Origin: Quercus robur
Lineage: Eukaryota > Streptophyta > Magnoliopsida > Fagales > Fagaceae
Direction of reading: 5' to 3'
DNA: 64,000 bases
Assembly: GCF_932294415.1 (NCBI RefSeq)
Contig: NC_065536.1
Location: 58,095,854 to 58,159,853 of the forward strand
Shown: positions 47,901 through 59,448 of the stretch, piece after piece
How positions within the stretch are numbered: the stretch's first letter is position 1
How the letters are laid out: each line of letters begins with the position of its first letter
Program-made: the position numbers and the translations under genes
The notes under the pieces: generated by a model
What the model was told of the DNA's origin: nothing
What the model saw: only the letters and a program-made list of their open reading frames with translations
Databases searched by the model: none

Positions 47901-47984
47901 GACGTTTGTTAGTTTAATCATTAGTAGCTAGTTTAGTAATTTAAGTACAACTTATTTAAAGTTCTTTGTTTTTCAACGCTTACA
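44946..47984. other. Intergenic, 3 kb, no gene
   Basis: AT-rich DNA. At about 46186-46455 the blocks aggcggtcgcctaaggcc and, reversed, agggcgacttgatgc...ggccttaggcga face each other around an AT-rich core, suggesting a small hAT-like MITE. At 47290-47345 a phrase ending tgtagcattcctc resembles one arm of the MITE at 48438-48607. Short frames here have no domain. Confidence 0.45.
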
Positions 47985-48418
47985 TTGTACAGCTTATTAA
48001 GAAGATCAAAGCTCCAATGGATGCTGTTGGGGCTGAGGCGAAAGCTTTTGTGGTTGGTATCTCCTATGCTAGAGATGTTGGGGTTGCTGAATTTATTTTG
48101 GAGGGTGATTCTTTGATTATCTCACATGCTTTATGTGAAGTTGTGAACAATCCTCGCCTCCTTCATCTATTGGTCCAATTGTCTATGGTATTTTATCTTC
48201 CAGCCACGAGTTTTGACATATTGAATTTTTCCATGTTAGAAGACAAGGTAATAGACTGTTCATTTGTTAGCAAAAAAATGCTTTTGGCATTGATAATTTT
48301 TCTGTTTGGATTGAAGAGAGTTCTCATTTTATAGAACAAACTCTTCTTCGGGATGTAATTTCTTTTTCTAGTTGAATGAAATTTCAGTTTCCTATAAAAT
48401 AAATAAATAAATAAAAAA
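47985..48418 (+). mobile_element. LINE 3' remnant: RNase H-like domain and tail
   Basis: A plus frame from 47966 reads through an RNase H-like segment of the kind found at the C-terminus of plant non-LTR retrotransposons: GAEAKAFVVGISYARDVGV, then FILEGDSLIISHAL with the conserved acidic residue in EGDS. Past about 48200 the frame shifts: SHVRRQGNRL, a hallmark phrase of this domain, continues in another frame, so the copy is dead. A 3' trailer follows and ends in an A-rich tail (ataaataaataaataaaaaa, 48397-48418). The reverse transcriptase region is absent, as expected for a 5'-truncated LINE. Confidence 0.75.
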
Positions 48419-48437
48419 CCATCACATATTAACAAAA

Positions 48438-48607
48438 GGAGTGCTACGTCAATAACATTTTCACAACAAATCATAAGCGGTAAGTTGTTATTAGTTCTAA
48501 TTTGAATCTACAACTTAAATTACTTTTTTTGCCCCACCCATAACAACTAATAACAACCTACCACTTAGGATTTATTGTGAAAATGTTGTAAACATAGCAT
48601 TTCTCAT
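48438..48607. mobile_element. MITE with long inverted repeats
   Basis: The arm 'gtgctacgtcaataacattttcacaacaaatc...gttgttattagtt' and the reversed right arm 'atgctatgtttacaacattttcacaataaatc...gttgttattagtt' are about 80 percent alike over about 60 bp. It follows directly after the LINE tail. It is 170 bp and non-coding. The TSD is unclear. Confidence 0.7.
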
Positions 48608-48749
48608 TAAACAAACCCATAAAATTAAAGACAAAATTTAGCTACAAACTTAACTATAACTAGTGATTAAATACAACTGCATTCAATATCCTTTTATTGG
48701 ATATGAATTTTGTAAAATCAATCACTGGATAACATTTTCTTCTTATATT

Positions 48750-49236
48750 TGTTAGACTTATGGTTAAGTGATTAAATTCACCATTTCTTAACAGTTTAAA
48801 CTTTTGGAACAATCGGTAATTTAACATGGTATCAGAGCAGGAGATCCTGAACTTGATCCCTGGCTTTACTTTATCTTCCATTTAAAATGTTAAATTCCCA
48901 CTTGTTGGGTCCGCACTTATTAAGGGGAAGGTTAGGCCCACAAGTGGGGGAGAGTGTTAGACTTATAGTTAAGTGATTAAATTCACTATTTCTTAACAGT
49001 TTAAACTTTTGAGACAATCAGTAATTTAACATGGTATCAAAGCAGGAGATCCTGAACTCGATCCCTTGCTTTACTCTACCTCCTATTTAAAATGTTAAAT
49101 TCCCACTTGTTGGGTTCCCACTTATTAAAGGGAAGTTTAGGCCCACAAGTAAGGGGGAATGTTAGACTTATGGTTAAGTGATTAAGTTCACCATTTCTTA
49201 ATAGCTTAAACTTTTGGTACAATCGGTAATTTAACA
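48750..49236 (+). mobile_element. Tandem TRIM/SMART-type mini LTR element
   Basis: Three near-identical 77-bp terminal repeats (48750-48826, 48955-49031, 49160-49236), each beginning TGTTAGACTTA and ending TTTAACA, alternate with two 128-bp interiors. Each interior starts directly with a primer-binding site complementary to initiator tRNA-Met (tggtatcagagc or a close variant, at 48827 and 49032) and ends in a purine-rich tract (such as aagtgggggagag at 48942-48954). A single unit of 282 bp fits the TRIM/SMART class of miniature, non-coding LTR retrotransposons. The flanking 5-mers atatt and atatc nearly match, as for one old insertion. It has no coding capacity and is a fossil. Confidence 0.9.
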
Positions 49237-49619
49237 ATATCTTTCATGATTGCAAAATTTTTGTAAAATAAAAATCAATAGCTATATCATCAATTAAATG
49301 TCTAGATTTCAAGTTTTTGTAGTATAAATTATACATAAAAAAAAAAAAAAAAAAAAGCTTAATGATTGAATAGTGAATAATATCTTATTGGCATAAAATT
49401 TAACATACATATTAAGAACATATAGAGCATGTAATTCAACAATTATAATTTTGAATTATACATTTAAAGCTAAACTTTGTCCTAAAATTAATTTACCCAA
49501 AATAAGCTTTGTCAAAGAATTCTAAATACTCTTTGTCAGAACTATTCGAAAAGGTGATGTAAATGAAAATGAGATGGAGGAAAAGTTGATCGAGAAAAGG
49601 AAAAAAAATAAAAATCATT

Positions 49620-54763: not shown

Positions 54764-56346
54764 ATGGAAGATCTCACTAAGAATTGGAGCAATTTAACTC
54801 TTTATGAGAAGGAGGACACTGGTTTTACTCTTCCACGAGATAAGCAACTTAAGGAATACATCATTGTGGCCACATTCCTTATTTCACGTTACCTAGTCAT
54901 GGAAGTTGTGATCCGAACACTCAAGCATTTGTGGAGATTAAAGAATGGTTTCAAAATCAGAAACGTGGAAAGGATCATTGAAAACCAGCCATGGAGCATC
55001 AACAAACACCTTGCCCTCATACAAAAGTTTGATGAGTCTATGAAATTCCATGAGTTGGCGTTTGTTAGAGAAGAAAATAAGAGTCAGACATTGAGGCAGG
55101 CGGCGGAGACTGAAGGTGGTTCACTAGAAGTTGCCAATCCACTGAGTGCTGAGATGGAGAAGATGACAACTAGGGTTTGCATTGAAGAGGAAAAGGGTAT
55201 TAATGACGAACCGGTTACAAACAATGAGCAAATGGCTGAAGTAGACAAACAGAAGGAAACGGCTGCATTTAATTCCAATTCCAGCTCATGTTCGAGATTT
55301 ACTCTTCCCAAAAACTCGGGATTATCATTGAATGAGAATTATACTCTTCCACAAACGGCTGTGCCAGAATCGCCAATCAATAGCCAAGAATCTTCGCTGC
55401 CATTATCTCTCGCAATTAATGGGATTTTAAGCTATCCTAAGGGCATTGATACGGAGTTAAATGCGGGGAATGATGACAGCTCACCAATTATTGCTCCTAT
55501 TAACTCTAATTCCCAGCAATCCCAACGATAAGTGTTTAATATGGTCAATATTCCAGACAAGGAAAAAAGCGCAACAACAACAATGAAGGGTAATGAACCA
55601 GATCAGTCCAATTAGCCTCCACACCGTGCCATTTGGAAACCTCCTCCATGGCCGATCCTGAAGGTGAACTCTGATGATGCAATTTTTTAGGAACAAAACT
55701 CTGTGGATGTTGTTTTGGATATGGGAGGTGGATTAGTGTTGTTTTGGAGATCGACTATTGATGTAATTGTGGAGGGTTCGGGCACAAATTATATTGATAC
55801 AATGTTTCAAGAGGAAGATAGGGTAGGGATTAGAGTGATCATCCGAGAATGCCAAGAAAAAGGCTTGGCACACATGGTCGGAATCATCCCTCTCCCCCTA
55901 ACTGTCATAGAGCTTGAAACTTTGGCTATATCGAAGGCTTTACAATTTGATGCTGATCTGAGTTTGGAAGATGCCACCCCAGAAGGAGTTTTAGAGATTG
56001 CAATGAACGCTTTGAATGCAGATTCGCAGTCTTTGGAATCCTTTGGTTTACTTAGTCGTGATGTTGAATGTTTTGCAAGTTTATTTCATTGTATTAGGTT
56101 TTCACAAGTTTGTAGAGAAAGATTGTTGTATTCTCACAGTAAGAGAAACGACAATGAAGTTGCTCATAGTCTAGCTAAAAATGCATTATGCATACCAGAT
56201 TTTCAAATATGGATGGAAGATGTCTCATCTCATATTGGTTCGATTTTACAATTGGATTTAGTTGAATTTTATTAATAAAATTCATCAGTTTCTTTCTATA
56301 AAAATTTAAAAAAAAAAAAAAACAAAAAAAAAACAAAAAAAAAAAC
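54764..56346 (+). mobile_element. Rearranged non-autonomous LINE (DUF4283 and RNase H parts)
   Basis: Two large frames. The first (54764-55531, 255 codons) opens like plant LINE ORF1/DUF4283 proteins: MEDLTKNWSNLTLYEKE, TLKHLWRLKNGFKIRNV, then NQPWSINKHLALIQKFD and FHELAF. The usual stretch between IRNV and ERII is missing, as is a zinc knuckle, and a long Ser/Asn/Glu-rich tail follows. Just downstream, PHRAIWKPPPWPILKVNSD begins an RNase H-like domain. The second frame (55703-56275, 190 codons) carries GGGLVLFWRSTIDVIVEGS, which belongs to the N-terminal endonuclease part of LINE ORF2, and then returns to RNase H (GIRVIIRECQEKGLA, HSKRNDNEVAHSLAKNAL, FQIWMED). No reverse transcriptase is present. 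It ends in an A-rich tail (about 56306-56346). It is internally deleted and shuffled. Confidence 0.75.
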
Positions 56347-56681: not shown

Positions 56682-57281
56682 ATGGCTCGTCCTTCTGCTC
56701 CATCCTTATCGGCCCTTGCTGCTTTGCTCTTGAGTTTAGGCTTCGCACTGGTCTTACCTCAATTAGTTCTATGTGTTGCAACCACGACTCATTCCGAGGG
56801 CCAAGAAAACTTTGATCCATCTTTATCAACCCCAACATTGACACATGAATATGAGGTCTTTGTTAGCTTTCGTGGGGCCGATATCCGCACAGGCTTTAAA
56901 AGCCATTTTTTTGCTGCTTTAAACCATAAAAGGATTGGTGCATATAGAGATGACATAGATCTCCCTAGAGGGGGAGAGATTGGACCTGAGTTGTTGAAGG
57001 CAATTGAGACTTCAAGGATTGCAGTTGTTGTGTTCACAAAAAATTATGCTACTTCGGATTGGTGCCTTGATGAGCTGGTGAAGATCATGGAATGCAAAAG
57101 GCTTTTAAATCAAATGGTGCTGCCTATATTCTATGGTGTGTCTCAGTCCGAGGTGCTAGAACAGAAGGGAGTTTTTGCAAAGGCGCTCTTAAAGGGCCCT
57201 AAAGACAAGGTTAACAATTGGAGAGCTGCATTGATGGAGGCCGCAAACTTGGCAGGCTTGCATTCAGAACAATATAGGTAA
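56682..57281 (+). CDS. TIR-domain protein, first of tandem pair
   Basis: A 199-codon frame. Residues about 8-34 form a hydrophobic N-terminal segment (signal peptide or membrane anchor), followed by a TIR domain from about 57: YEVFVSFRG (57-65), a KSHFFAAL alpha-A with the Ser-His pair (74-75), the BB loop with LPRGGEIGPELL (94-105), SRIAVVVFTKNYATSDWCLD and the catalytic-type Glu131 of WCLDEL. The usual P-I-F-Y-x-V-D-P motif reads PIFYGVSQSEV, so the DP is lost. Plant TIR domains hydrolyse NAD+ to make immune signalling nucleotides through EDS1; a role here is inference. The frame ends in a splice donor whose GTAA contains the stop (AG|GTAA at 57276-57281), so the gene is either a TIR-only protein or exon 1 (56682-57277) of a longer one. 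No NB-ARC or LRR exon is seen downstream. Confidence 0.8.
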   Translation: MARPSAPSLSALAALLLSLGFALVLPQLVLCVATTTHSEGQENFDPSLSTPTLTHEYEVFVSFRGADIRTGFKSHFFAALNHKRIGAYRDDIDLPRGGEIGPELLKAIETSRIAVVVFTKNYATSDWCLDELVKIMECKRLLNQMVLPIFYGVSQSEVLEQKGVFAKALLKGPKDKVNNWRAALMEAANLAGLHSEQYR

Positions 57282-58077: not shown

Positions 58078-58784
58078 TAGACGTGGCAAAACGGGCGGGT
58101 CGGGTCGGGTTCGGGTCGGGTCAATCGGGTTTGCGGGTTAAACGGGTCACGGGTCAAAACGGGTCATTTTTAAAACGGGTCAATCGGGTTGCGGGTCAAA
58201 CGGGTCGCGGGTTGAGTCGGGTCGTGAGTCGGGTCGAGTTGACCCGTATTTTTCAAACAATTTTTTTTTTTTTTTTTGGAAATAGATGCAATCTGTCAAT
58301 TGTTTATGAGTTCCTTAATTGTGATTAGATTCTTACTAGTGATATTGTTACCAATTACCACTAAACACTTGAATTGATACCCAAATTTGGTGCAACTCCT
58401 GTTCCAGCTTTCTAGAAACTAATCTTGGTATAATCTTTAATCTATTTAAAGTAGGAAGAGAAAATAAAGGTGGCAAGTAAAAAATAACAAACTATAATGG
58501 AGTACATAACATATTAAGTAAAAAAGAATAAGTAAATATTTTATAAAAATTACACCTCAATCTAAATCTACTCAACATTGGTAAACGTGGCAAAACGTGC
58601 GGGTCGGGTTCGGGTTCGGGTTCGGGTCGGGTTAATCGGGTCACGGGTCAATCGGGTCACGGGTCAAAACGGGTCACGGGTCAAAACGGGTCATTTTTAA
58701 ACGGGTCAATCGGGTTACGGGTCAAACGGGTTGCAGGTCAAACGGGTCGGGTCAAAACGGGTCTGACCCGTTTTGCCATGTCTA
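58078..58784. mobile_element. Non-autonomous hAT-like DNA transposon, 8-bp TSD
   Basis: The 707-bp element is bounded by a perfect 8-bp direct repeat ACTAGTAT (58070-58077 and 58785-58792). Its terminal inverted repeats are TAGACGTGGCAAAACGGG (left) and TAGACATGGCAAAACGGG (right, reversed), one mismatch in 18. Both subterminal regions are dense arrays of CGGGTCGGGT/AACGGGTCA. A third, internal, direct copy of the end motif (aacgtggcaaaacg) lies at about 58584. No transposase. It sits between the two TIR genes and so postdates or accompanied their separation. Confidence 0.92.
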
Positions 58785-58896
58785 ACTAGTATACTACCTA
58801 CAACGTTGAGCAGAAGACAGCGAAAAAGGAGGAGAGAGAAATCCCAAAGAAGCAATCTTTGCTTCTTTGCTCCTCTGTGTGTTTCAACTTTCAACC

Positions 58897-59448
58897 ATGG
58901 CTCGTTCCTTTGCTCTATCCTTATCCGTCCTCGTTCCTTGGCTTTTCTTGAGTTTAGGCAGCTCACTTCAATTAGGTCTTAGTGTTGGAACCATGGCTCA
59001 TTCCGTGAGCCAAGAAAACTCCCCAACGTTGACCTATGATTATCAGGTCTTCGTTAGTTTTAGCGAAGATACCCACAAAAATTTTACCTGCCATCTCTTT
59101 GTTGCTTTAGATCGCAAAGGGATTCGTGTGTATAAATCAGAATTTATTCGGATTGAACAAATGAAGGCAATCGAGAAATCAAGGATTGCAGTTGTGGTGT
59201 TCTCTAAAAACTATGGTAATTCGGATTGGTGCCTGGATGAGCTGGTTAAGATCATGGAATGCAAAAGGCTGTTCAATCAAAGAGTGATCCCTATTTTTTA
59301 CGATGGGTCTCCTTCTGAAGTGCGAAAACAGGAGGGCGATTTCGCAGAGGCGCTACGGAATGGCCCTGAAGACAAGGTGAATAGTTGGAAGGTTGCTTTG
59401 ACGTACGTTGCAAGCTTGGCAGGCTCGCATTTGAATCCATATCGGTAA
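58897..59448 (+). CDS. TIR-domain protein, second of pair, BB loop shortened
   Basis: A 183-codon frame, clearly a duplicate of 56682-57281: the same MAR start, a hydrophobic segment (about 6-30), and a TIR domain from about 49. Conserved parts are YQVFVSF, SRIAVVVFSKNYGNSDWCLD with the catalytic-type Glu115, ELVKIMECKR, PIFYDGSPSEVRKQEGDFAEAL. Differences matter: the FRG-D-R motif is replaced by FSEDTHKN, alpha-A Ser-His reads Cys-His, and about eight residues of the BB loop (the DLPRGGEIG region) are missing between VYKSEF and MKAIEKS. The loop shapes the NADase pocket and self-association in plant TIRs, so this copy may be inactive or altered; that is inference. The frame also ends within a donor (CG|GTAA, exon 58897-59444, phase 2), exactly as in the sister gene. 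Confidence 0.75.
   Translation: MARSFALSLSVLVPWLFLSLGSSLQLGLSVGTMAHSVSQENSPTLTYDYQVFVSFSEDTHKNFTCHLFVALDRKGIRVYKSEFIRIEQMKAIEKSRIAVVVFSKNYGNSDWCLDELVKIMECKRLFNQRVIPIFYDGSPSEVRKQEGDFAEALRNGPEDKVNSWKVALTYVASLAGSHLNPYR

Follow-up and report, generated by a model that had tools for sequence, protein, structure and literature searches.

Origin of tandem copies in a miniature LTR retrotransposon (TRIM) family of Quercus robur: evidence from outer-LTR likeness and subfamily mosaics

Introduction

Tandem forms of TRIMs, which are non-coding, non-autonomous LTR retrotransposons, have been reported for 129 subfamilies in 35 of 43 plant genomes, and in maize the form with three LTRs and two interiors (L3I2) is given as the commonest kind of TA-TRIM (63 of 93 arrays) (Gao et al. 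2016, PMC4717578). Both template switching and recombination have been published as origins of tandem LTR elements (PMC1950507, PMC7215508, PMC4528315, PMC11899658). For Cassandra tandems the two processes have both been proposed (PMC7215508), the authors of the Wukong study infer recombination between intact elements (PMC4528315), and a 2025 paper treats the origin of tandem LTR elements as open, with complex insertion and illegitimate recombination both seeming possible (PMC11899658). Template switching predicts outer LTRs that are identical at insertion and a middle LTR that is separately derived (PMC1950507). If crossing-over took place after insertion, the middle LTR should be intermediate between the outer ones, and the first and second interiors (I1 and I2) should diverge no more than the first and third LTRs (L1 and L3).

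Here we describe an L3I2 element in the window (the whole 64,000-nucleotide stretch of Quercus robur DNA that was analysed, C3:58095854-58159853) together with its relatives in the searched genome (786 Mb, 42 contigs). The window element itself is ordinary and belongs to an already described class, the tandem mini-retrotransposons. Its family, however, comprises two diagnosable subfamilies and several tandems, and this combination allows a direct test of origin based on the likeness of outer and middle LTRs and on the position of the switch.

Results

The window element (48750-49236, C3:58144603-58145089, 487 bp in total) consists of three LTRs and two interiors laid out as 77-128-77-128-77, with the LTR starts spaced 205 and 205 nt apart (Table 1), and Tandem Repeats Finder reports the same stretch as a single array of period 205 (2.4 copies, 90% matches, 0% indels). 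This is the repeat-interior-repeat-interior-repeat order with equal lengths put forward in the original prediction, which was also correct in placing a primer-site motif directly after the first two repeats and a purine tract ahead of the second and third (GGGGGAGAG before L2, GGGGGAA before L3). We take the primer-site motif to fit tRNA-Met. The motifs occupy the positions that define TRIMs, with a putative primer site after the 5' LTR and a purine tract before the 3' LTR, and the LTRs are direct repeats with TG...CA ends. In ungapped comparison, the LTRs are 90-95% identical to one another over 77 positions and the interiors 88% identical over 128, and transitions predominate among the differences. 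None of the window ORFs of at least 120 aa overlaps the element; its 282-bp unit (<1 kb) and 128-bp interior are of TRIM size and have no coding capacity. With three LTRs and two interiors within one target-site duplication (TSD, 4/5 letters), as in TA-TRIMs, the element is a non-coding, non-autonomous LTR retrotransposon (TRIM) in the L3I2 form. The unit was expected to be among the smallest of its kind; it is small but not the smallest, a 233-bp TRIM having been reported, and the accompanying remark that compact tandem TRIMs are rarely annotated falls short, tandem TRIMs being described as common in plants (PMC4717578).

Table 1. Components of the L3I2 element and its flanking duplication, in window positions
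Feature	Position	Strand	Details
5' TSD ATATT	48745..48749	+	4/5 letters as in the 3' copy
LTR 1 (L1), 77 bp, TGTT...AACA	48750..48826	+	repeat comparison; subfamily A
Interior 1 (I1), 128 bp	48827..48954	+	starts with primer-site motif TGGTATCAGAGC, ends in purine tract; subfamily A
LTR 2 (L2), middle LTR common to both units	48955..49031	+	5 differences from LTR 1, 8 from LTR 3; subfamily A
Interior 2 (I2), 128 bp	49032..49159	+	carries primer-site motif TGGTATCAAAGC and purine tract AAGGGGGAA; differs from interior 1 at 15/128 positions; subfamily A
LTR 3 (L3)	49160..49236	+	4 differences from LTR 1; subfamily A
3' TSD ATATC	49237..49241	+	flank reading

Several other features were observed in the window. 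An inverted repeat at 48437-48604 (two 65-nt arms, 82% complementary, with a 38-nt spacer) is perhaps a MITE, and ORFs at 56682-57281 and 58867-59448 contain TIR domains (Pfam TIR, E 7e-45 and 7e-34) that may mark a TIR-type resistance-like gene cluster. ORFs at 47966-48334 and 55703-56275 match RVT_3 (reverse transcriptase-like, E 3e-5 and 2e-5) and are possibly retroelement remnants, and short tandem arrays with CGGGTCAAA-type units of several periods occupy 58176-58763.

The 28-base junction between LTR and primer site has 21 exact matches in the genome and 297 matches at three or fewer mismatches, compared with 0 for a reversed-pattern control, and the family is therefore dispersed and multicopy rather than confined to this locus, the outcome that had been named as counting against the original prediction. 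Because the window unit recurs at many other genome sites, a chance origin is excluded. The junction search gave places for 100 of the 297 matches, and the loci examined contain 38 junctions with two mismatches and 69 with 0-1 mismatch (21 + 48), the latter being the same number as among the matches listed; arrays account for 5 of these 69, at 4 loci. Among the loci examined, 66 full single copies lie outside array loci (this leaves out L111:517-800, which belongs to an array, and L002:520-728, a copy on its own at an array locus), 25 of them exactly 282 bp and 45 of them 280-284 bp long, in keeping with the conserved spacing that had been anticipated for a genuine family. Median LTR-LTR divergence is 9.0% (64 singles, L111 included). 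Among 68 full singles, one pair has alike flanks and is for this reason regarded as a segmental duplicate. No helper (autonomous) element was found in the loci examined. A larger autonomous partner had been considered at L061, L062 and L111, where an LTR lies by an unusual primer site, and was rejected: L061 and L062 are short copies that lack most of the interior, and L111 is a tandem array.

Complete L3I2 arrays are present at eight loci, namely the window (L001), L002, L003, L111, L124, L132, L133 and L135. L038 also reads as L3I2, with a partial first LTR about 750 bp from the first interior; this separated LTR presumably belongs to the array, and L038 is included with the eight in the nine-array count used for the test of origin. 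Outside that count are L134 (149-836, reverse strand), with four LTRs and three interiors, all of subfamily B; L004, L013, L024 and L067, which are truncated or inverted and lack three scorable LTRs; and L125 (701-1061), in which an L-I-L copy is followed by 2 bp and a complete LTR, with a perfect TSD (TAAAC) around all. The L125 arrangement resembles a two-LTR junction, and L024 and L067 contain inverted junctions. The arrays were recovered with the window array and related copies as queries (best 40 candidates or 100 places per search) and are a non-random sample; at least two more candidates lie outside the set, at C39:46492615-46493009 and at C4:56867619-56868136, where two TRIM copies stand in opposite orientation about 30 bp apart. 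The further tandems have unrelated flanks: those of 14 array loci (up to 700 bp per side; L135 not among them) have no mutual similarity at E 1e-5.

We compared outer and middle LTRs within the arrays. The outer LTRs are the closest pair in eight of the nine L3I2 arrays (P = 0.001 if each pair is given a chance of 1/3), and interior divergence exceeds outer-LTR divergence in 8/9 (sign test P = 0.02). When L038 is dropped, its first LTR being partial and set apart, 7/8 arrays agree on each measure (P = 0.0026 for the outer pair), and an earlier eight-array count of the test had likewise given 7/8. Pairwise realignment of five arrays shifts the counts and leaves the result the same (outer pair closest in 5/5); in L124, the differences for L1-L2, L1-L3 and L2-L3 are 16/9/14, 16/13/16 or 14/9/13 depending on the alignment, and the outer pair is always the closest. 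L003 is the exception on both measures, with a middle LTR that is intermediate (3 and 4 differences, versus 7 between the outer LTRs), while in the four-LTR array L134 the outer LTRs (10/77) do not clearly stand out as the closest pair. In the window copy, where the numbers are small, the outer pair has 4 differences versus 5 and 8 for the other pairs, and the interiors diverge by 11.7% versus 5.2% for the outer LTRs. The window copy leans to template switching, with too few differences to decide. Taken across the nine arrays, the comparisons suggest for most that the tandem was already complete when it was inserted, and for one (L003) that crossing-over produced it.

The alternative that survives best is that a single L2I1 TRIM was inserted and later converted to L3I2 by unequal crossing-over between its LTRs, on sister chromatids or homologues, as has been suggested for Wukong. 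Crossing-over would also preserve the TSD, and it fits L003 well. In the window copy, I1 and I2 have three rare states in common, a level reached by 24 of 2,999 between-locus pairs, and because of these shared states they are read as close kin, as crossing-over would have it; L1 and L3 differ at four sites, and L2 agrees with L1 at three of these and with neither at the fourth. (The nearest-neighbour ranks of I1 and I2 say little here, copies such as L017 being near many others.) However, crossing-over needs L2 to be nearer to both outer LTRs than these are to each other, and I1-I2 divergence not above L1-L3 divergence, and each of these expectations fails in 8/9 arrays, the window copy included. 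We consider this origin unlikely for the window tandem, though it deserves some weight, and regard it as reasonably probable that the tandem was made by template switching and inserted once as a unit.

The interiors of the family split into subfamily A (60 singles, L111 included) and subfamily B (12 singles). Leave-one-locus-out scoring, for which the labels were drawn from the same data, misplaced 0/72 interiors and 5/131 LTRs. Mean distances between singles are similar for LTRs and interiors, at 0.125 and 0.125 respectively in A and 0.157 and 0.162 in B (59 A and 12 B singles, L111 left out). The window array is of subfamily A throughout, as are L002 and L003, and L134 is a non-mosaic B array; L135 is B except for its first LTR, which scored to neither subfamily. 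In five mosaic arrays (L124, L111, L038, L132 and L133), the outer LTRs belong to one subfamily and the middle LTR to the other. The order is L_A I_B L_B I_A L_A in L124 and L111, and L_B I_A L_A I_B L_B in L038. L132 and L133 have the LTR order of L124 and a first interior of subfamily B, with weaker outer-LTR scores (-10.7 and -4.4 in L132, -2.1 and -4.8 in L133) and a second interior that is ambiguous in L132 (+6.0) and B in L133 (+34.9). Among the truncated or inverted copies, L067 reads L_A I_B L_B I_A (first LTR weak, -4.3) and L013 reads I_A L_A I_B L_B with its 5' side cut; I1 of L024, which is B in one scoring and unassigned beside an inverted junction in others, was not counted as mosaic.

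Ten of 12 subfamily changes fall between an LTR and the following interior (hand count, each side scoring 4 or more; changes within one array are not independent), and the remaining two, in L132 and L133, fall between an interior and the following LTR. In the LTR the subfamily markers are confined to roughly the first 40 bases, and in the interior they start near position 13, which places most changes in the expected region of R, U5 and the primer site. Copying of one chimeric tandem to several loci was considered and rejected: among L124, L111, L132, L133 and L067, mean distances between arrays (L1, I1, I2 and L3) are greater than mean distances to singles, and only L2 is slightly closer (0.134 vs 0.144). 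Since the distances between arrays mostly exceed those between arrays and singles, separate array origins fit better, with a small doubt arising from the L1 copies of L124 and L067, which are mutual nearest (0.07).

A/B mosaics cannot come from one element alone, a further difficulty for crossing-over. In yeast, cDNA or one-LTR circles of Ty1 recombine into the LTR of a resident element, and similar homologous recombination, by which another copy's cDNA or one-LTR circle enters the LTR of a resident TRIM, would account for mosaics with a single TSD; entry into the 5' LTR would yield L_A I_B L_B I_A L_A, the same mosaic order as template switching. Entry into the 3' LTR, however, should yield outer LTRs of differing subfamily, and no such case occurs in the five mosaic arrays whose outer LTRs are both scored (weakly in two of them); L013, cut on its 5' side, is uninformative on this point. 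We find this explanation improbable. As for template switching across the family, we put at about an even chance the broader reading that the tandems were mostly born chimeric, from co-packaged RNAs, often of different subfamilies, that were joined at R and inserted together.

Perfect 5-bp TSDs flank 38 of the 66 full singles, and 4/5 matches another 11, in line with the 4-6 bp typical of TRIMs; in a control that paired flanks across elements, matches of 5/5 occurred in about 0.15-0.16% and of 4/5 in about 3.3-3.4%. Among nine complete arrays (here L001, L002, L003, L111, L124 and L132-L135), six have TSDs matching at 4-5/5 letters, compared with 3.6% in the control: 5/5 in L124 and L135, and 4/5 in the window copy, L002, L003 and L111. 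No clear match was seen in L133 (3/5), L134 (3/5) or L132 (1/5). Where the TSD is clear, it is grounds for reading the arrays as single insertions and not as fusions of neighbours, and for the family as a whole one-unit insertion is the favoured origin. The near-match of the outer 5-mers in the window copy, from which the original prediction had suggested either one-unit insertion or unequal recombination after insertion, is upheld (4/5), but one-unit insertion is not proven for this copy itself. Recombination between two neighbouring independent insertions, with loss of the sequence between them, is stated in one earlier study to be the source of most shared-LTR complexes identified up to that time (PMC1950507), yet it predicts unmatched outer flanks and is disfavoured by the TSDs; we judge it very improbable, although L132, L133 and L134 taken by themselves would be compatible with it.

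L061 and L062, which are about 35 kb apart, each hold a short TRIM copy within alike, locally duplicated sequence, and another copy of the duplicated stretch in L061 has no TRIM at the same point, forming a paralogous empty site. The regular period of 205 might speak for a satellite or a chance tandem repeat unrelated to retrotransposons, but that explanation is refuted by this empty site and by the dispersed 282-bp singles with 5-bp TSDs.

Discussion

Under template switching before insertion, the enzymes of a helper element would reverse-transcribe two co-packaged TRIM RNAs, and the growing minus strand, on reaching the 5' R of the first RNA, would switch to the 3' R of the second. In the resulting concatenated cDNA the outer LTRs would be identical and the middle LTR separately derived, and a single insertion would leave one TSD around the whole. 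At the window locus, both template RNAs would have come from subfamily A. Some observations stand against template switching: the pattern of L003 fits crossing-over, L132, L133 and L134 are without a clear TSD, and the close kinship of I1 and I2 in the window copy is also predicted by duplication at a single locus. If the arrays were indeed born chimeric, the middle LTR and its interior would record the second parent, while the outer LTRs would agree with each other, and the arrays would be fossil evidence of which RNAs had been co-packaged.

In structure, the window element shares with the described TA-TRIMs its three LTRs and two interiors in one TSD and its short non-coding interior (PMC4717578). 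By description, SMART/FRetro129 (Gao et al. 2012, PMC3281118) is close in size (292 bp, with 85-bp LTRs and a 122-bp interior) and has the TGT...ACA ends and 5-bp TSD of the oak family, but it is reported there from grasses and not outside them, and the oak element has 77-bp LTRs and a 128-bp interior. Wukong is likewise a TRIM and also occurs in tandem, with three, four, six or seven LTRs, although at 532 bp with 230-bp LTRs it differs from the 282-bp oak unit (PMC4528315). Cassandra also forms TRIM tandems with shared LTRs (PMC7215508); its LTRs contain 5S rRNA sequence, whereas those of the window element do not, no Rfam family reaching its gathering score in the window. A search at the level of titles and the starts of abstracts, in which subscription journals are thinly covered, found no description of subfamily mosaics within TRIM arrays.

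The complexes of Sabot and Schulman (2007, PMC1950507) resemble the L3I2 arrays reported here in having three LTRs, two interiors, a TSD on the outside and outer LTRs that are the most alike. Their examples, however, are large Angela, Squiq and Opie elements, whereas the oak arrays belong to a 282-bp TRIM family in which, unlike in those complexes as described, two subfamilies mark the templates. L3I2 TRIMs and both models of their origin are already known; what is added here is evidence on that origin from subfamily mosaics and from the likeness of the outer LTRs.
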